The notes under the pieces: generated by a model
What the model was told of the DNA's origin: nothing
Database searches by the model: none
Seen by the model: the letters and a program-made list of their open reading frames with translations, nothing else
Source of the DNA: Fabrea salina
Taxonomy: Eukaryota; Ciliophora; Heterotrichea; Heterotrichida; Fabreidae
Assembly (NCBI GenBank): GCA_022984795.1
Contig: JALIHJ010000017.1
Location: forward strand, 241,952 to 305,951
DNA: 64,000 nt
Direction of reading: 5' to 3'
Made by a program: the position numbers and the translations under genes
Part shown: in pieces, positions 498 through 42,423 of the stretch
Layout: every line of letters starts with the position of its first letter
Numbering within the stretch: position 1 is the first letter of the stretch

Positions 498-2168
498 ATG
501 GAACTTTTAACTAAAAGCGCAATTCCGGAAATAGCCCGCGGAAAGTCTTACTTCGACTTGCAGCCCACTCTCCAAGTAATTGGCATCAAACCCATGAAGG
601 ACGGGCACCGAGTAGTTTTGTCAGACGGAGAGTACTTCGACCAGTTCGTAGTTAGTTCCCAGAACCCCAGTCTGAACCCCGAAACAAGACTTAAGGTAAA
701 CCAACTTGTGTTGGTGCAGAAGTACGAGTGGGTTGACTACGGAGACAAAAAAGCAAAGTTCATAGACGCTTACAGTCCTGGAGCAGAGTTTGGCGAGAGA
801 GTAGGCAACCCAACATCCATTGACAAAGTGGATTTGGAGTCCATTCAGCGCTCTGCCCAAAGGGACTCTGCAAACTACGTTCCCATCAGAGGACTCACCA
901 CAAGTACCTTTGACCTAGCGATGAAACTCAGAGTCACCAAGAAGTCAGACATAAGGCACTGGAACAACGACAGAGGCTCTGGGAAGTTGTTTAACGCCAA
1001 CCTGCTGGACTCTTCAGGTGACGAAATCCAAGCCTCGTTCTTCAACGAAGCAGCAGACATGTTTTACAACACTCTTGAAGAAGACAAAGTTTACGTGTTC
1101 AAAGGCGGAAGGGTCAAAATGGCCAACCAAAGGTTCCAAGTGGTCAAATGCGACTACGCTCTTACCTTCGACCAGCACTCTTCAATCACACAAGCTGAAG
1201 ACTCAGGAGAGATCGAGAAGGAAAAGTTCAGTTTCGTGAAGATCAAAGACCTGCCCGAGAAGATCAGAAGTGTTGTGGACGTTTGCGGAGTAGTTACCTC
1301 TGCAGGAGAAGTGGCTGAGATTACCTCTAGAAAAGGAGACCAACTCAAAAAAAGGAACCTCGCTCTGACTGACGACAGCCTAAGGTCAATTGAACTCACT
1401 CTTTGGAACAAAGACGCCGAAAACGAAATGCTAGATGCTTCAGTGGGAAGTGTAATGGTTGCCAAGGGAGTTAGGGTGAGTGACTACCAGTCTTGCTCAC
1501 TAAGCAGTGTGAAGGACACCACCAAGATCATGTTCAACTTAGCTATTCCAGAAGTTATGGCTCTGTGCAACTGGTACCACAACTGCTACAAGTCAGAGTC
1601 AGCACTCAAAATCACCGAAAAGCAAAGCTACGGAGACAGGTTCGCTTACAAGTCGTTCCAGGAAATCCGGGACGCCTACGAAGACGGTCCTGACCAAGAA
1701 GACCAAGTGAGAGTTTCAGGGTTCATAGGCTACATCAGGAAAGAAGAACCCTCAAACATCTGGTACACCGCTTGCAAGAACTCAGAAACCTGCAAACGCA
1801 AAGTAGTTAAAGAAGCTGACGGGTACTACAAGTGCGAGAAGTGCAAGGACAGCTTTGCAGAGTGTTCTTACTGCTACATGGCTTCTCTGAAACTCCAAGA
1901 CCACTCAGGGGCCTTTTTCGTTACGTGTTTCGACAACACAGCCGAAAAGATCATAGGCCATTCAGCCTCTTACATGCAGCACCTTTCCGAAACTGACATG
2001 GAGTCCTTCAACAACATACTAACAGCCCCCATTGGCAGAGAAATAGAAGGAGTCCTGAAAGTGCAAGCCAAAGACGGCAAAGCCAGAGGCAACCTCATGG
2101 CCATTCTGGAAAGCGAGCCCAAAAAGTCCCTGGAGGGCTACTTGGAAGAACTCGAAAAGTTGTTTTAG
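498..2168 (+). CDS. RPA1: Replication protein A large subunit (RPA70)
   Basis: Large subunit of the heterotrimeric single-stranded-DNA-binding protein used in nuclear replication, repair and recombination. The 556-residue protein has an N-terminal OB-like region (about 1-110), two central OB folds (about 130-370, DBD-A and B) and a C-terminal DBD-C. DBD-C carries the diagnostic zinc ribbon: YTACKNSETC followed 14-18 residues later by CEKC, and then VTCF after the ribbon, as in human RPA70. Length is slightly below the usual ~600. The start ATG lies in CTAATAAATATGG, the A/T-rich start context seen throughout the window. It ends in TAG, 42 bp before the cullin. Confidence 0.93.
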   Translation: MELLTKSAIPEIARGKSYFDLQPTLQVIGIKPMKDGHRVVLSDGEYFDQFVVSSQNPSLNPETRLKVNQLVLVQKYEWVDYGDKKAKFIDAYSPGAEFGERVGNPTSIDKVDLESIQRSAQRDSANYVPIRGLTTSTFDLAMKLRVTKKSDIRHWNNDRGSGKLFNANLLDSSGDEIQASFFNEAADMFYNTLEEDKVYVFKGGRVKMANQRFQVVKCDYALTFDQHSSITQAEDSGEIEKEKFSFVKIKDLPEKIRSVVDVCGVVTSAGEVAEITSRKGDQLKKRNLALTDDSLRSIELTLWNKDAENEMLDASVGSVMVAKGVRVSDYQSCSLSSVKDTTKIMFNLAIPEVMALCNWYHNCYKSESALKITEKQSYGDRFAYKSFQEIRDAYEDGPDQEDQVRVSGFIGYIRKEEPSNIWYTACKNSETCKRKVVKEADGYYKCEKCKDSFAECSYCYMASLKLQDHSGAFFVTCFDNTAEKIIGHSASYMQHLSETDMESFNNILTAPIGREIEGVLKVQAKDGKARGNLMAILESEPKKSLEGYLEELEKLF

Positions 2169-2210
2169 TATGTTATCCATAAATTAAGTGTCTCTGATAA
2201 AGGATAATAA

Positions 2211-4445
2211 ATGTCAGGCATAGATGATGGAATGAATAGAATCAGAAGGGAACTTATCGAAAATCTCTTCGAGTACCTAGACACAGGGGTCTTTAACAAC
2301 CGGTCAAACGAGACTTACGTAAAGGCTTATGGAACAGTGCTTGAACTAGCTGACCAAGAAGACTTCTCAGAGTTGCTTTACAACTACTACATTGACACCA
2401 TCAAAAACTATACTATTGAAAACGTCAAAAAAAGCTTATCAGAGCAAACAGGGGAAACCTTCCTCTCAAACCTAGTGAAGCGCTGGGAGAATCACAAGAT
2501 CCTTGTTTACTGGATGCGGAAAATATTTATGTACCTGGACAAGTACCATGTTAAAAACACGCAGTCTACTCCTTTGTTCCAAGTAGGCTTAGAAATATTC
2601 CGGGAAGAAATCTTTGAAGGAATTGCAGGTCACTTGAGAGGGGTAATAATTGAACAAATTAGGAAAGAAAGAGAAGGCCAGTTGATTGACAGGAACCTTT
2701 TAAAAGAAGTACTGCTGTGTTTCGTGCAGGTGGGATTAACTGAAGTTTCGATTGAAAAGATCATAGAAAAAGGTGATGACGGCAAACGGGAAAAAATAGT
2801 TTGGAAAGGAACAAAACACCTAGAAAGGTACAAAGACTTGTTCGAAACCTTCTTTTTGAGTGACACACAGGAGTACTACAGAAGCAAGTCTGCAGGGTGG
2901 ATATCTTGTTTGTCGTGTCCTGAGTACATAAGTAAGGCAAAAAAGGTCCTTGAAGAAGAAGAAGACAGGGCTGAAAAGTACCTTGACCACTCAACCATGA
3001 ACCCTCTCTTGGCCATTGTAGTTGAAGAAATAGTCACTAAGCACGCTTTAACCCTCACTGAAATGGAAGGAACAGGCTGCCTAGACATGTTCAAGCACAA
3101 AAAACTAGATGAGCTCAGAAACATGTACCTGGTGTTCAAAAGAGACGAGCAAACTCTTAAGTACATGACTTCCAAAATGAACCCTTACATTGAAGTCAGA
3201 GGTTCCAAGATCGTCGAAGACGAAAAACTCCAACAAGACGCTATTGAGTACACAAAAGCCCTTTTGGAGTTCAAAAGTGAAATCGACGCTATGGTTGAGT
3301 ACTCATTTGATAACCACTCAGTTTTTCAGAGGTGTAGGGATTTAAGTTTCCAGAACTTCATGAACAAGTGCCAGTTTTCTGCCCCTTACATTGCTTCTTA
3401 TGCTGACCACGAAATGAGGAAAGGCCTCAAAGGAGTTAGCGAAGCTGAAACTGACCAAAGACTTGAAGCTTTGATAAAGCTGTTTTTGTGTCTGAATGAC
3501 AGAGACGTGTTCATCAGGAACTACACCAGGTACCTCTCTAAAAGGTTACTTGACGGCACTTCTATAAGTGACGAAGCCGAAGAAAAGATGATTTCCAAAC
3601 TCAAAGTGGAGTGTGGTCACAACATTGTGAACAAGATTTCTAGTATGTACCAAGATATCGCTTTGTCGTCTAACTTGATGGAGGAGTTCAAAGGGCTGTC
3701 CCACCGAGGCTCTCCAGGAGGAATTAACATGACTGTCCAAGTGCTCCGCAGTGGGTGCTGGCCAGAGCAAAGTTCGGAACCCTGCATTATTCCTCCTGAA
3801 CTAGAAACGTGCACTAAGGCTTTTCAGAACTTTTACCTAAACAAGCACCAAGGCAGGAACCTGACTTGGCTGTTAGGTTTTGGAACTGTGGAAATAGGAA
3901 CCAACTTTGCTAAAAGGAACTACACTTGCATAGTCAATCCTTACCAAGCAGCTATCTTGCTGTTGTTCAACAGCGGGGACAGCTACACTCTGGCTGCTAT
4001 AAAAGAAGCCACCAAGCTCAGTGACAGAACTCTGAAAGCCCACGTTCTAGGGTTTTTCAACCCCAAAATGAAGATTCTTCAGAAGTCCAGCAAAGGAAAA
4101 GTGCTTAACGACGAAGACCAAATCACAGTAAACAGTGACTTCCACACCACTTCTTTGCGAGTGAACTACGTGCCCAAGAAGGTCAAGAAGTGCGAAAGCA
4201 ACACCAAAGAAGAAGAACAAGCCATTCAAAGTGAAAGAAAGAACATTCTCGACTCAGTCATTGTGAGGATAGCCAAAAGCAGAAGAGTCATTAAACACCA
4301 AGAACTAGTAGCTGAAGTAATCAGACAAGTCAGTCACTTCAGGCCTCAGCCCACCATGATAAAAACTCAGATTGAAAGTTTGATCCAGCGCGAGTTTCTT
4401 GCTAGGGACGAAAAAGACAGGGCTACTTATAACTATATTCCATAA
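2211..4445 (+). CDS. Cullin, scaffold of a cullin-RING ubiquitin ligase
   Basis: Scaffold that joins a substrate adaptor at its N-terminal cullin repeats to an RBX RING subunit at its C-terminus. The protein is 744 residues, the usual cullin length. The cullin-homology signature KRLLDGTSIS is present near residue 440. The C-terminal winged helix contains IVRIAKSRRVIKHQELV, in which Lys689 aligns with the NEDD8-acceptor lysine. The tail RATYNYIP resembles CUL1/CUL3 ends. Which paralogue it is cannot be settled by eye. COP9 subunit 1, part of the machine that removes NEDD8 from cullins, is encoded 4 kb downstream. The start follows GGATAATAA. Confidence 0.93.
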   Translation: MSGIDDGMNRIRRELIENLFEYLDTGVFNNRSNETYVKAYGTVLELADQEDFSELLYNYYIDTIKNYTIENVKKSLSEQTGETFLSNLVKRWENHKILVYWMRKIFMYLDKYHVKNTQSTPLFQVGLEIFREEIFEGIAGHLRGVIIEQIRKEREGQLIDRNLLKEVLLCFVQVGLTEVSIEKIIEKGDDGKREKIVWKGTKHLERYKDLFETFFLSDTQEYYRSKSAGWISCLSCPEYISKAKKVLEEEEDRAEKYLDHSTMNPLLAIVVEEIVTKHALTLTEMEGTGCLDMFKHKKLDELRNMYLVFKRDEQTLKYMTSKMNPYIEVRGSKIVEDEKLQQDAIEYTKALLEFKSEIDAMVEYSFDNHSVFQRCRDLSFQNFMNKCQFSAPYIASYADHEMRKGLKGVSEAETDQRLEALIKLFLCLNDRDVFIRNYTRYLSKRLLDGTSISDEAEEKMISKLKVECGHNIVNKISSMYQDIALSSNLMEEFKGLSHRGSPGGINMTVQVLRSGCWPEQSSEPCIIPPELETCTKAFQNFYLNKHQGRNLTWLLGFGTVEIGTNFAKRNYTCIVNPYQAAILLLFNSGDSYTLAAIKEATKLSDRTLKAHVLGFFNPKMKILQKSSKGKVLNDEDQITVNSDFHTTSLRVNYVPKKVKKCESNTKEEEQAIQSERKNILDSVIVRIAKSRRVIKHQELVAEVIRQVSHFRPQPTMIKTQIESLIQREFLARDEKDRATYNYIP

Positions 4446-4455
4446 TTTAAGCAAC

Positions 4456-4650
4456 ATGGGTAACTGCTTTAGAAGCCAAGAAAATGAGTCGGCGACTAAA
4501 ACTAAAAACAAGCAAGAAGACCTAGCTTTCACTTTTGCAAGTCCTAACCAAGTTCCTCAAAGCAACTTGCTTCCTACTTTTGCTGAGCCTAGTTTTTTTT
4601 CAGATAAGGGCTCAAAAAACACTCCTGACCAATGCGCTGGAAAGACTTGA
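4456..4650 (+). CDS. Small MGNC-type lipidated protein, 64 aa
   Basis: A short ORF begins 11 bp after the cullin stop. It starts MGNCFRSQ: Gly2 fits N-myristoylation and Cys4 fits palmitoylation, so the product is probably a membrane-tethered peripheral protein. The rest is polar and disordered (Lys/Asn/Ser/Pro). The same frame is open upstream inside the cullin, but the ATG at 4456 is the natural start because it opens the lipidation signal and follows TTTAAGCAAC. It ends in TGA, 28 bp from the stop of the convergent gene. There is no recognisable family. It could be a chance ORF, but the spacing and N-terminus favour a real gene. Confidence 0.55.
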   Translation: MGNCFRSQENESATKTKNKQEDLAFTFASPNQVPQSNLLPTFAEPSFFSDKGSKNTPDQCAGKT

Positions 4651-31708: not shown

Positions 31709-32602
31709 ATGTCAATGAAAGAGTGCTACGACTGCTACGCTGTAGACTCCTTTGTGGTGGACTACCGCGAAGGAACAGTCGTCTGTCAGAGTTGCGGCTG
31801 TGTCCAGGAATCGCACTTGATTTCTGAAAATTCTGAGTTACGCACTTTTTCAAAGGAAACTTCTTCTTTAGGCGAAGACTCCAGCAATCGAATAGGCGGT
31901 CGGGCAAACAGTTTGCTTTCAGACCAGGGCCTTTCCACCCACGTTTCAGGAACCAGTAACGACATAGCTTTTTGGACTAAAAAAATAGGCACTTCAGGCT
32001 CTGATAAAACACTTTTAAAAGGTTTCCGCAACATACAGGATTACTGCCACACCCTCAACCTTAACGAAAAGGTTGAAGAAGAAGCCAAAAAGATTTTCAG
32101 AGAAATCAGTGAAAAACGTGGTCTAAAAGGCAGACAGCACTTAGCAGTCATTGCTGCGTGCATCTTCATTGCAGCAAGGAACACTAATCAGTCCCGCAGT
32201 ATCAAAGAGTTGATTTGCGTAACTAGTTTGATGAGAGGAGACCTACACAGAAGCATCAGTTTAATTCAAAAGCACACGCCCAGTCGGGGCAACTTAACTC
32301 CTGCTGCTGAGTACGCTCAGCAACTTTCAGTGCAAATGAACCTGTCCCACAAACTGCAAAAAGTAGCTAGGTGTTTAGCCCAGAGGTCCAATGAAAAAGG
32401 ATACGTAACTGGAAAGAACCCCATGAGCGTTGCAGGGGCTGCAGTTTACATGACTTGTGTTCTTGCTGGAATGCCTAAAACTTTCAGTGAGGTAAGTCGT
32501 GCTTCTGCTAAAAAGGACGTCACTATTAAGAACTGCTACAAAATAATGTGTAAATATCAAAAAGAACTTCTAGTAGGGTTAGAGAACTTCTGTTATAAAT
32601 AA
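31709..32602 (+). CDS. Transcription factor IIB
   Basis: General RNA polymerase II initiation factor that bridges TBP-DNA and the polymerase. The 297-residue protein has an N-terminal zinc ribbon (CYDCYAVDSFVVDYREGTVVC with CQSCG) and a B-reader/linker (RTFSKETSS). Two cyclin folds follow: GRQHLAVIAACIFIAARN in the first, and GKNPMSVAGAAVYMTCVL in the second. Length is near the 300-345 typical of the family. The sequence fits TFIIB better than BRF or Rrn7 because it lacks their C-terminal extensions. TAF1, another Pol II initiation factor, is 4 kb downstream. Confidence 0.93.
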   Translation: MSMKECYDCYAVDSFVVDYREGTVVCQSCGCVQESHLISENSELRTFSKETSSLGEDSSNRIGGRANSLLSDQGLSTHVSGTSNDIAFWTKKIGTSGSDKTLLKGFRNIQDYCHTLNLNEKVEEEAKKIFREISEKRGLKGRQHLAVIAACIFIAARNTNQSRSIKELICVTSLMRGDLHRSISLIQKHTPSRGNLTPAAEYAQQLSVQMNLSHKLQKVARCLAQRSNEKGYVTGKNPMSVAGAAVYMTCVLAGMPKTFSEVSRASAKKDVTIKNCYKIMCKYQKELLVGLENFCYK

Positions 32603-34415: not shown

Positions 34416-36176
34416 TTAAAATTCTTTGTAGTTATCTTTAAGGTTTCTACAAACAGCGCATCCTAAAGCAAACTCTTCGCCGTTAGGAGGGTGCTTTACT
34501 TTCAAAGGGCACTTTGAAGGTCCTAGGCACTTTTGGAGTTCGTCTCTTTTCTTCCTAGTTAAATAGTCTCCGTTGTTCTGCCTCGTGTGGCAACTATCGC
34601 AAAAGTGTGTGTTTCCCCAGCAAAACCACGCTGAAACACTGCAGCAAAACTTGCACTTAAACTCTATAAAGTCTTTCCCGTGAGTAGGACAGTCAGTTCC
34701 CTGCATTCCTATTGCTGAGCACGCTGGACAAACTAACTCTGACTGGTCGTAGTGGTCTCTGTCTAGATTTTGCTCGCACTCTTTTTTGCCTCCAAAGTAA
34801 GGCTTTTTGCACTTAAAACACTCATAGTAAGACAAGCGGTCCAAAGCGTACTTCTCCCGTTGGTTGTAGTAGTGGTCTCCAGGAGTAGTGAGTCTGGAGT
34901 CGTTTTCCATTCCTTCAAACTTAAGTCGCTTAAGGGCCTTTTCTCTGATGTCGCTGAAGAGTTCCAAAATGCTGTCCATAAGCGAAGTGATGTGGGAACT
35001 GTCAGGCACGTGAGCCCACTCCTTGCACGAAGGGCATTTGGCAAAGTTAAAAGTAATCCTGGGACCTACCCACCTTTTTTCTAACTGAGTAATTAAACAG
35101 TGGTAGTGAACTATGTGTCCACAAATCATCTGCACAGAGGGAGCTGCGCCTAGTCCTTCTATAAAACATATACTGCAGAAGTCGTGCTCGTTGTTGGAGT
35201 CTCTGCAGTTTTCGTTCAAGCAAGGCAAGCACCTGTGTTCGTTCTTTACGCCATAGCAATGGTGCCCGCAACTGAGTCTCTGTCTGCAGGAGTTTCTGCG
35301 TCTAGACTTGCACTCTTTACTTTTGCAGACTTTTTTTTCCGGTGAAATTTGTTTCTCGCAGTACCTGCACTTATTGGAACTCTTGAACTCAAGGTACTCC
35401 TTGCAGGTCTTGCCTAAGTGGTAAGGGTCTGCTTTGCACTTAGCACAAAACACTTTGTTGCAGTTGCTGCACCTGAAGCGGTACTTAGACATGTTCCGGG
35501 CAGCCCTGGCAGAAATAGTGTTACCTGTATCGTCTTTGTAGCTGCTGTCTACGTTGCCAGGCTCCAAAATTGAACTGATTCCGCACGAACAGTTAACAAG
35601 TATCCCCCCTGAGGTTTCAATGAAGTCCTTGATGCTTTTTTCTTTGAGTTTTTCTAGTTCTTGGTCTCCCACCAAGTCCTTCATTTCTTCTATTGCAAAG
35701 CAGTAGTCACAACCTAGCTTAGGACACTCCACTACATTTTCGGAGGGGTACTGAGCCCTAATAGCTTCTATAGCATGTTCTCTGCACATCAAGTGACAGC
35801 ACTCAGGGAAAAACATATCAACCATGTCGTAACGCATTTCTGAACAGAGCTCGCACTTAACCGCGTCACTTTCAAACAGCTTTGCTTCTTCTTGAATGAA
35901 TCCTATGTGCTTATTTTCTTCAAGTGGAATGGGCCTTTTCTTGGCAGGGAATTTGAGTTCCGGAGGCTCAGGAAGTGACTTTTTAGGTTCTTTGAAGTCA
36001 GCATACAAAAGTGCTTCGCACTCCAAGCGGAGTAATTGCGTGGAGTTGTTCATAGCGATTTCTTTTGCTGTCTGGTAGAGTCTGGAACTCCTGCGCCATG
36101 TCGGACAGTTAATTAAGTGCTTAAATCCTGTTCCAGGATCTAATTCTATTCCGCAGTAACATCTCAAGCTTTCCAT
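34416..36176 (-). CDS. E3 ligase: RING1-IBR fused to MYCBP2-like RCR domain
   Basis: A probable ubiquitin ligase of 586 residues. The N-terminal part has a zinc-binding CRCYCG-like opening, then a RING1-like unit at 108-156 (CELC...CCHLMC...CPKLGC) and an IBR-like unit at 196-260 (CSC...CSNCNKVFCAKC). The C-terminal third is the RING-Cys-relay domain otherwise known from MYCBP2/Highwire/RPM-1: RING at 334-384 (CSICFIEGLGAAP, CGHIVHYHC, RWVGPRITF, CPSC). The tandem-cysteine part follows at 450-578 (CFKCKKPYFGG, EFKCKFCCSVSAWFC, THFCDSC, HPPNGEEFALGCAVCRN). The usual RBR RING2 is replaced by it. No SPRY/PHR or RCC1 parts are present. Confidence 0.85.
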   Translation of the reverse strand: MESLRCYCGIELDPGTGFKHLINCPTWRRSSRLYQTAKEIAMNNSTQLLRLECEALLYADFKEPKKSLPEPPELKFPAKKRPIPLEENKHIGFIQEEAKLFESDAVKCELCSEMRYDMVDMFFPECCHLMCREHAIEAIRAQYPSENVVECPKLGCDYCFAIEEMKDLVGDQELEKLKEKSIKDFIETSGGILVNCSCGISSILEPGNVDSSYKDDTGNTISARAARNMSKYRFRCSNCNKVFCAKCKADPYHLGKTCKEYLEFKSSNKCRYCEKQISPEKKVCKSKECKSRRRNSCRQRLSCGHHCYGVKNEHRCLPCLNENCRDSNNEHDFCSICFIEGLGAAPSVQMICGHIVHYHCLITQLEKRWVGPRITFNFAKCPSCKEWAHVPDSSHITSLMDSILELFSDIREKALKRLKFEGMENDSRLTTPGDHYYNQREKYALDRLSYYECFKCKKPYFGGKKECEQNLDRDHYDQSELVCPACSAIGMQGTDCPTHGKDFIEFKCKFCCSVSAWFCWGNTHFCDSCHTRQNNGDYLTRKKRDELQKCLGPSKCPLKVKHPPNGEEFALGCAVCRNLKDNYKEF

Positions 36177-39333: not shown

Positions 39334-40479
39334 CTAAAAAGACCTAGTGTGGAGAATCCTTTTGCCTTCGTCCTCGTACTCTTGTTTCTTAATCCACATG
39401 TTTTTGAAAGCTGCAAGTGTAGACAGAATCGATCCTCCTAACCAACAAGTTAGTTTCCTTTCTGGCGGAGCTGTTATTTTAATTTTGATTTCTTTGGGAG
39501 ACATTTTGCGCAAGTCACTCAAAAGTCTTTCACCAAAGCCAGGCATCATAGTTGTTCCGCCTGCCAAGTAAATACTGGAATACAAAGTTTTCCTCAAGTC
39601 AATGTCAGCTTTTTGGATTGCGTTGAGAAGACACTCCTGAACTCCAGAGTACTCTAAACCCACTTTGTCAGGAGAAAACAGAATTTCACTAGCACGGTAC
39701 TTTTCTGCACCTAAGTTTATAGGCCTTCCGTCTGGCAGCAAGTAAGCACTAGCGTTCTTTGTAGGGTCGTCGAAGTAGTTGTCTTCGCTGCTGTAGATGG
39801 TAGCTACGTAGCAGTTTTTCTCTTTGATCTGGCGTACCACTTCGAACTCAGCAGAAGTGTGGAAGATGTAACCTGCACGTCTCAGCAAAAGCATTAAGTG
39901 GTCAGTCACGTCCCTTCCTCCCAAGTCAATCCTCGTGATTGAATGGGTCAGAGCAAACCCGTCGTAAACAGGCACTGCGTGAGTTACTCCGTCTCCGCAG
40001 TCCAAAACCACTCCTGTGGTTGCACCAGAAGCGTATAAACTGAGCACAGCTTGCGCTGAAAAAAAGATCCCAGGCACGTTGAATGTTTCGAAAAAGATCT
40101 CGGCAGCCCTTTCACGGTTGTGGACTGGGTTCAAAGGAGCTTCAGTAAGAAGCACGGGGTGGTCTTGAGGCATCGTTTGCAAAGAGTTGTAGATGTAGCG
40201 CCAAATATTTTCCATGTCAGTCCAATTCTCTACAATTCCGTGACTAAGTGGGTGACGAATCTTAAGGAGCCCTCTGTTCTGCTCGGCTTCAGTGCCTACG
40301 TAGTACTCAGGTTCATGCATGCTCCCAGGCAGCACCTTTTTGTACTTGGGCCTTCCGACATAAGATGGAAACACCAGGGAGGGTCTTTCTTCCCCAGCTA
40401 GCCCAGCCTTCATTATTCCGCTTCCGTTGTCGATTACCAGAGGCTGCTTAAAGATATAGTCAAAAAAGGGCTCTACCAT
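39334..40479 (-). CDS. Actin-related protein 1 (centractin) of dynactin
   Basis: Forms the short filament of dynactin, the dynein activator. The 381-residue protein opens with QPLVIDNGSGIMKAG (phosphate loop 1) and has YVGRPKYKKVLPGS. The Arp1-like HPVLLTEAPLNPVHNRERAAEIFFETFNVP, TTGVVLDCGDGVTHAVPVYDGF, IDLGGRDVTDHL and AGGTTMMPGFGERLL are all present. The loop GSMHEP and the C-terminus KKQEYEDEGKRILHTRSF fit Arp1 better than conventional actin, which ends KCF. A divergent actin cannot be fully excluded without a tree. Confidence 0.85.
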   Translation of the reverse strand: MVEPFFDYIFKQPLVIDNGSGIMKAGLAGEERPSLVFPSYVGRPKYKKVLPGSMHEPEYYVGTEAEQNRGLLKIRHPLSHGIVENWTDMENIWRYIYNSLQTMPQDHPVLLTEAPLNPVHNRERAAEIFFETFNVPGIFFSAQAVLSLYASGATTGVVLDCGDGVTHAVPVYDGFALTHSITRIDLGGRDVTDHLMLLLRRAGYIFHTSAEFEVVRQIKEKNCYVATIYSSEDNYFDDPTKNASAYLLPDGRPINLGAEKYRASEILFSPDKVGLEYSGVQECLLNAIQKADIDLRKTLYSSIYLAGGTTMMPGFGERLLSDLRKMSPKEIKIKITAPPERKLTCWLGGSILSTLAAFKNMWIKKQEYEDEGKRILHTRSF

Positions 40480-40488
40480 TTCTTTTAT

Positions 40489-42423
40489 TTAACTTGAATG
40501 ACCGTGTTTATTAGAAAACTCTAAGTACTCCCTAATGAGTTGAGGCGTAATTCTCGGAGAAACTCTGTTCCTTGCCTTCAAAAAGTCTTCTTTGGAAACT
40601 TCTGTAGTTTGGATGTCCCGAGTCAATGCGTTGATTCCTGCCTCTCTGGCTACTAAGGACACTTCTGCCCCAGAGAAACCTTCCATTCCCTCTGCAAGTT
40701 CTTCTAAGTCTACTTGTTCTGCCAAAGGCATTTTCCCAGTGCAGATTTCCAAAATCTTCAGCCTGGCTTGGGAGTCCGGCGGAGGCACGTAAACCATTCT
40801 GTCAAACCTCCCTGGCCTAACCAAGGCTTTGTCAATGAGTTCAGGCCGGTTTGTAGCTCCTAGTATAGTTACGTTCTTCAAAGCTTCTATTCCGTCCATT
40901 TCGTTCAACAAAGTGCACAGAACTCTTTCGTTAACTCCGACTTCAGAGCCTTCTCTTTGCGAGCCCATTGCGTCTAGCTCGTCTATGAACACGACTGAAG
41001 GTGCGCAGGTCCGGGCTTTCCGAAAGATTTCCCTTATAGACTTTTCAGTGTCCCCTACGTACTTAGAAAAGAGCTCAGGCCCCTTAATAGCTATAAAGTT
41101 CAAAGAGGACTCTGTAGCAATGGCTTTGGCCAGCATAGTTTTAGAGCAGCCTGGAGGCCCGTACAGCAAGAGTCCTTTGGGAGGGTTCACACCAAGTCTT
41201 TCAAAAGCTTCAGGGAACTTCAGTGGCCACTCAACAGCTTGCTGCACTTGAAGTTTCACTTCGTTGTAGCCTCCTATTTCGTGCCAGTGAACTTTGGGAA
41301 CTTCCACAACTATGTCTCTCAACGAAGAAGGAGACACCTCTGACAAAGCTCCTTTTATGTCACCGATTGTTACGTTCAACTCTCCGTTTTGTTTGAAGCG
41401 CTGAATTGCACGCATTCCAGCTTCCCTACACATACTCACTAAGTCAGCTCCTACGAACCCGTGAGTTTGCTGAACTACCCAGTTTACTTCTTCTTCACTA
41501 AGACTCACTTTCTTCATTTTCTGAAACATCAGACTTATGATGTCTTTTCTGTCTGAAGCACTGGGTACAGGAACTTCTACTTCCTTGTCGAACCTGCCTG
41601 GACGCCTAAGTGCACTGTCCAAAGAGTTAGGTCTGTTGGTAGTGGCAATCACTAACACTCTGCCCTGGATTGAATCCATCGCTGTTAAAAAGGTAGTTAC
41701 TATTCTTCTCTGGTACTCTTCAGAGCTTTCCCGTGAAGGACATATAGAGTCTATTTCGTCAATCAAAACAACCGAAGGAGTTGAAGACATTGCTTCTTGG
41801 AAGATTTCTTGAACTTTGCTTTCGCTTTCTCCCACGAACTTACTGAATATAGAGTTGTCCAGCCTTACAAGGTTAGCACTGGCCTTTTTGGCAAGCCAAG
41901 AAGCTATAAGTGTTTTTCCGGTTCCAGGAGACCCGTAAAGAAGAATGCCTTTAGGAGGAGCAATGTTTAACTCGGAGTAGACTTCTGGATTCACAAGGGT
42001 CATGCTAACTAGTTCTTGCAGAGCTTCTAGTTGGTGGTGGAGTCCTCCTATAAGTAGTTCTTCCTCCTTTTCAGGTTCTTCACTCACAGGGACTTCTGGC
42101 ACCAAAACATTAATCTGTGTTCTAGGTGGGATTTACTTTTTGGTAATGAGACAAGGAAGTTGTTCTTTCAAAGACAACTCTTCAAACTGCTCTTCCAAAG
42201 GAACTTCCAGTGAAAACTCTTGGGGAACTCCGTAAATACTCACTTTCGTAGTTGAGTTCCTAACTACAGTTTGGCCTACTAAGTTCTGGGCTAAGTAAAG
42301 TTGGAGCATTCGGTTCGACAACTAAGTAAGGCTTACCTTTGCTAGTTTAGGCGAAACCTCCAAAGGAGTAGCATTGATTTGTTTGGCCTCCGGAAGAGTT
42401 TGGGGTTTAGTCCCTGAAGACAT
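40489..42423 (-). CDS. AFG2/SPATA5-like double AAA ATPase (two introns)
   Basis: A 634-residue hexameric ATPase that in other eukaryotes releases Rlp24 from pre-60S ribosomes. The first AAA domain has GSPGTGKT and VVLIDEID. The second has the unusual Walker A GPPGCSKTMLAKA that marks AFG2/SPATA5, with VVFIDELDAMG and ATNRPELIDKALVRPGRFD. The long uninterrupted exon starts near 42105, but two 15-nt introns (42322-42336, 42122-42136) extend it to an ATG at 42423, adding an N-terminal domain of ~100 residues. That is shorter than in human SPATA5. The ATG is preceded by a TATT word shared with the plus strand. Confidence 0.9.
42122..42136 (-). other. 15-nt intron 2 of the AAA ATPase gene (phase 2)
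   Basis: GTAAATCCCACCTAG on the minus strand. It joins LITKK to TQINVLVPEV in frame. A is at position 10. Retention gives TAA at intron bases 2-4. Confidence 0.88.
42322..42336 (-). other. 15-nt intron 1 of the AAA ATPase gene (phase 0)
   Basis: GTAAGCCTTACTTAG on the minus strand. It follows 29 codons and joins LAK to LSNRMLQLYL. A is at position 10. Retention gives an in-frame terminal TAG. Confidence 0.85.

Follow-up and report, generated by a model that had tools for sequence, protein, structure and literature searches.

RBR ubiquitin ligases owe their thioester chemistry to the RING2 (Rcat) domain, the part of these proteins that forms the thioester with ubiquitin. For MYCBP2, a review describes a relay of ubiquitin between two cysteines, a Cys-His-Glu triad and a hydrophobic pocket for the methyl group of threonine (PMC9527308), and the domain list of a second article places RCC1, PHR and RING-Cys-relay (RCR) parts in one chain (PMC4806438). 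Among the literature matches listed, which were titles and abstract starts with few subscription papers covered, those on the RING-Cys-relay included no protist enzyme, none linked MYCBP2 with protist orthologs or with ciliates, and the combination of MYCBP2 with Tetrahymena returned unrelated papers only, going by their titles and the opening lines of their abstracts. Protein databases may well contain annotated homologues.

The gene described here belongs to a heterotrich ciliate, whose genome was searched in full as assembled (18.33 Mb, 103 contigs). It lies in a window of 64,000 nucleotides, the whole stretch of DNA analysed, with which contig C12 (305,951 bases) ends on the right. Judging from its domains, the product is likely to be a compact RCR-type transthiolating ubiquitin E3, with its activity predicted from that of MYCBP2. 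The architecture read from the sequence, an RBR front half joined to an RCR within a compact E3, is unusual (Table 1).

Results

The gene and its genomic setting

The gene is read on the minus strand as one frame running from ATG to TAA, with 586 codons and zero internal stops, and both the length and the coordinates given in the sequence-only reading are exact. A divergent gene, encoding a DUF3591-matching protein that we take to be TAF1-like, lies 18 bases from the start of this frame, and a short ORF read in the same direction follows 6 bases after its stop codon, so that the frame fills its slot. The window also contains genes for a TFIIB-like protein (31709-32602, plus strand), an actin-family protein (39334-40479, minus strand) and a protein with two AAA ATPase matches (40489-42105, minus strand).

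CCCTAACA repeats open all seven contigs inspected, and the complement of these telomere repeats is found at the right end of the window; C12 is therefore capped at both ends. These observations bear on the idea that an assembly or annotation artefact has fused two genes, which draws on the fact that the frame is known from assembled DNA. The continuity of the frame and the telomeric nature of both contig ends lessen this concern, and the closeness of the adjacent ORFs speaks against it as well, making such an artefact highly improbable.

Telomeres of this kind and introns of 15 nt are traits of heterotrichs. A loose scan of the window for GT..AG stretches did not single out 15 nt (12 at this length, with 4-19 at each of the others between 12 and 30), and a stricter scan, made after the looser one, revealed an excess of 15-nt introns of the GTA..TAG type (5 vs 0-2 at each of the 18 other lengths between 12 and 30). 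Within the 586-codon frame there are eight GT-N11-AG stretches, of which the sole GTA..TAG one, at codon 335, is read as coding because it covers RING residues common to the human protein. The stretch at codon 6, beyond the human-aligned part, may be an intron.

Regarding the chromosome ends of this genome, a 63-base probe for 18S rRNA gave nine matches, on C15, C26 (two), C36, C41, C48, C51, C55 and C92. On C55, C41 and C51 the match is 2.5-5.3 kb away from where the contig starts, and rDNA units thus seem to be placed near chromosome ends.

Table 1. Features of the gene and its product, with positions in the window.
Feature	Residues	Coordinates	Strand	Basis or remark
Whole gene	1-586	34416..36176	-	586 aa, single open frame
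N-terminal C-x-C...H-x3-C cluster, possible small zinc site	6-24	36105..36161	-	Sequence alone
RBR-type RING1, divergent, eight candidate ligands	108-156	35709..35855	-	Ligand set and joint profile; weak alone
IBR, with insertion between two ligand pairs	196-258	35403..35591	-	Pfam IBR, profiles
Cys-rich segment at expected RING2/Rcat place	270-324	35205..35369	-	Ten Cys, three His; without Rcat pattern
RING of RCR	334-384	35025..35177	-	30/52 identical to human
Tandem linker region	385-452	34821..35024	-	21/46 identical over human 4443-4490, part of linker
Tandem-cysteine (TC) domain	453-578	34443..34820	-	68/129 identical to human
Upstream relay cysteine (human C4520)	C467	34776..34778	-	Alignment
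Catalytic Glu (human E4534)	E480	34737..34739	-	Alignment
Downstream esterification cysteine (human C4572)	C519	34620..34622	-	Alignment
Catalytic His (human H4583)	H530	34587..34589	-	Alignment

The RCR module

A phmmer search of PDB sequences matched residues 330-579 with the RCR of human MYCBP2 (6t7f, E = 7.3e-77; 5o6c, E = 8.6e-77), which bears out the full RCR module recognised in the sequence-only reading. In a pairwise alignment, 123 of the 241 aligned residues are identical (51%), and the RING, the tandem linker and the TC domain follow one another as they do in the human protein. Both relay cysteines are kept, together with the catalytic Glu and His. The module retains 22 of the 23 human cysteines and 29 of the 33 cysteines and histidines taken together, which argues against a decayed module.

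We take C4520 and C4572 to be the relay cysteines of MYCBP2, and E4534 and H4583 to be its catalytic Glu and His. In this regard, setting the numbering by C4520 puts a Glu, a Cys and a His at positions E4534, C4572 and H4583, which lends support to this numbering. The threonine pocket, which we presume to be made up of F4573, F4578 and F4586, departs from that of MYCBP2 at one or two of these three positions: W520 takes the place of F4573, F525 corresponds to F4578, and F4586 stands opposite G536 in a gapped stretch.

Unlike MYCBP2, the protein has 586 residues and carries RING1-IBR in front of the RCR. Neither PHR nor RCC1-like domains were detected in it, a Pfam search of the whole protein at E values up to 10 having returned IBR, two RING models and Trm112p only. 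The whole protein finds itself alone in the genome and is therefore single copy. The TC part matches itself and one stretch on C27 (E 0.014); this candidate for a second TC gene was rejected, since its ORF resembles a C2H2 zinc-finger protein instead.

PHR domains are nevertheless encoded elsewhere in the genome (ten matches in five ORFs), with a TC match in none of the five. Some of these ORFs, on C66, C48 and C12 (222875-224791), share with MYCBP2 the presence of a RING and a PHR domain, but they are separate genes in which the RING is N-terminal and TC gives no match. Two of them, L045 on C66 and L046 on C48, are similar ORFs of about 1000 aa that begin with the RING, show by eye a possible B-box-like stretch and contain four and three PHR matches, respectively. 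The third follows an RCC1-repeat ORF on C12 (locus L047; 221519-222811, or 20-1312 of the locus, and 222875-224791, or 1376-3292), from which it is separated by 63 nt in the same frame, about 52 kb from the RCR gene. As the RCC1, PHR and RCR matches fall in different ORFs, the parts that MYCBP2 holds in one chain sit on separate ORFs here.

The RING1-IBR half and the place of RING2

Residues 1-106 gave no Pfam match. The resemblance to RBR ligases of the Ariadne and parkin kind begins after this region and consists of a RING1 that ends in C-x4-C, a spacer and the ligand set of an IBR. The candidate zinc ligands of RING1 are C108, C111, C126, H128, C131, H134, C151 and C156, and the spacing of its final pair recurs in 8 of 15 aligned RBR proteins of the same genome. 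Those 15, which were used for the profiles, come from 25 other IBR loci, of which 20 ORFs were retained by zinc-ligand pattern. The pattern for RING1, spacer and IBR, drawn up with the window protein and its paralogues in view, occurred in 0 of 5000 shuffled sequences and in 10 of the 20 same-genome IBR ORFs.

Pfam IBR (PF01485) scored 23.2 bits at residues 175-258 of the whole protein, just below the cut-off of 24.3, and 25.7 bits on the fragment 100-265, above it. The joint RING1-IBR profile built from the 15 ORFs gave 13.8 bits over residues 107-192 and 13.4 over 227-258, compared with 6.1 bits for the best of 200 shuffles; it also gave 13.7 bits at 333-463, over the RING of the RCR. With hhalign, the same profile reached a probability of 91% over residues 107-258 (E 1.1e-6), vs 1.6% for the best of 40 shuffles and 8.4% for the RCR. 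The RING1 profile alone scored 3.5 bits at 107-156, below the top score among 200 shuffled sequences (6.3), and preferred the RING of the RCR (9.8 bits); the evidence for RING1 is consequently the ligand set together with the joint match. When residues 100-265 were compared with PDB sequences by phmmer, no match was significant, the best being the FYVE domain of WDFY3 (E 0.015), followed by RNF31 (E 0.2), which we take to be HOIP. AlphaFold2 run without an alignment returned pLDDT values of 33.3 for the whole protein and 38.2 for residues 100-265, too low to give a usable model. Taken together with the single frame, the profile and Pfam IBR results uphold the earlier proposal that an RBR-type RING1 and an IBR are joined to an RCR in one chain.

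The protein differs from RBR ligases in that RING2/Rcat, and hence the RBR catalytic cysteine, is not detectable. The Rcat profile of the same genome gave at best 3.4 bits, a score that 200 shuffled sequences exceeded with up to 5.1; hhalign on residues 255-335 gave 0.2%; and the Rcat core pattern, present in 16 of the 20 same-genome IBR ORFs, is absent here. The cysteine-rich segment found in its place (270-324) was assigned to no family by Pfam or phmmer, residues 255-335 had no significant match among PDB sequences (phmmer, best E 0.086), and the segment 264-330 finds itself alone in the genome. The missing RING2 had been noted in the sequence-only reading, which also saw in one chain the architectures of two thioester-type E3s; this second claim is not supported, since the thioester part of the RBR architecture was not found. 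Two other RING1-IBR ORFs of the genome, L006 and L035, likewise seem by eye to be devoid of RING2. Animal PHR proteins may also bear a cysteine-rich knuckle right before the RING, which residues 297-324 would resemble here, and, if so, the conserved unit starts ahead of residue 330.

Discussion

As predicted from its domains, the chain is one thioester machine, the RCR, preceded by the front half of an RBR ligase from which the catalytic portion is missing. Given that RING2/Rcat was not found, the RCR alone would be expected to bear ubiquitin as a thioester. The RING at 334-384 would bind a UBE2D-type E2~ubiquitin, from which ubiquitin would pass to C467 and then be relayed within the chain to C519. 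By analogy with MYCBP2, C519 would then transfer it to a hydroxyl group (Thr/Ser) and not to lysine, with H530 and E480 assisting. The RING1-IBR half, being devoid of RING2, should form no thioester itself; its most probable role is an accessory one, in which it could bind ubiquitin or a second E2~ubiquitin, hold the substrate or regulate the RCR.

Counting against this reading are the partial retention of the threonine pocket, the shuffle-level score of RING1 alone, the lack of a significant PDB match for residues 100-265 and the low pLDDT values. The altered pocket, along with the fact that activity is predicted from likeness to MYCBP2, also lends something to the notion of an ordinary RING E3 that acts on lysine and in which the TC domain is structural and non-catalytic; this is nonetheless quite unlikely, as both relay cysteines, the Glu and the His are kept. 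A somewhat better, though still low, chance may be given to a more RBR-like scheme, in which the RING1-IBR half would be the E2 receptor: RING1 would load E2~ubiquitin and hand ubiquitin to the cysteines of the RCR, with TC replacing Rcat. The order and spacing of RING1, spacer and IBR are kept and a catalytic module comes after them, as such a scheme would have it, but RING1 is degenerate in sequence and the RCR retains a RING of its own, well conserved with respect to the human one, which does that job in MYCBP2.

Two origins may be envisaged for an RCR-type E3 of this architecture. It comes close to an even chance that RING-TC predates animals and was first borne by small proteins, being gained only later by animal PHR proteins through fusion with RCC1 and PHR parts. 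The RCR of this genome, free of PHR and RCC1 in its own chain while other ORFs carry those domains, and its 51% identity to human across the whole module fit such a history; on the other hand, only two lineages are compared, the viral and genome contig scans brought up no relative, and the loss of a giant N-terminus, or a transfer, would leave the same picture. Alternatively, and somewhat less probably, a heterotrich ancestor came to carry an RCR of the animal type downstream of a RING1-IBR gene that had lost its RING2, whether through horizontal transfer or as what was left of a vanished PHR-like protein. The high identity to human over a deep split, the single copy and the other same-genome IBR ORFs that seem by eye to be without RING2 would all suit an acquisition. 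Codon third-position GC, however, does not separate the RCR from the rest of the gene (0.44, 0.55, 0.62 and 0.50 along four parts, the RCR being the part with 0.50 vs 0.44-0.62 for the other three), and its unremarkable value gives no sign of recent arrival.

Single-protein and profile scans of the viral and genome contig collections, which hold viruses, bacteria and archaea, found no homologue; this absence is silent on eukaryotes. Four degenerate motif scans of the viral contigs found no homologue either, and a tblastn search with the RCR gave no match in phages. Seven loci brought up by one of the motif scans were discarded as spurious, the lowest tblastn E value among them being 2.8.

The findings suggest that the RCR module also occurs outside animals and in proteins of modest size. 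A compact RCR in a single-celled organism, free of the PHR and RCC1 parts to which it is joined in animals, would show the ubiquitin relay to have a greater age or mobility than expected from its role in neurons. If active as predicted, the protein would moreover be a small, naturally occurring enzyme with which the structural and chemical side of hydroxyl ubiquitylation could be studied. We regard as speculative, and rather doubtful, the broader idea that RCR ligases form an ancient class among eukaryotic enzymes, whose first members were small and derived from RBR ligases, with RING-TC replacing RING2 and with a RING1-IBR that still cooperates by engaging two E2~ubiquitin or ubiquitin sites, the neuronal giant MYCBP2 being a late animal elaboration.

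An FBXO45-like substrate receptor was also considered, and SPRY domains gave 16 matches in the genome.
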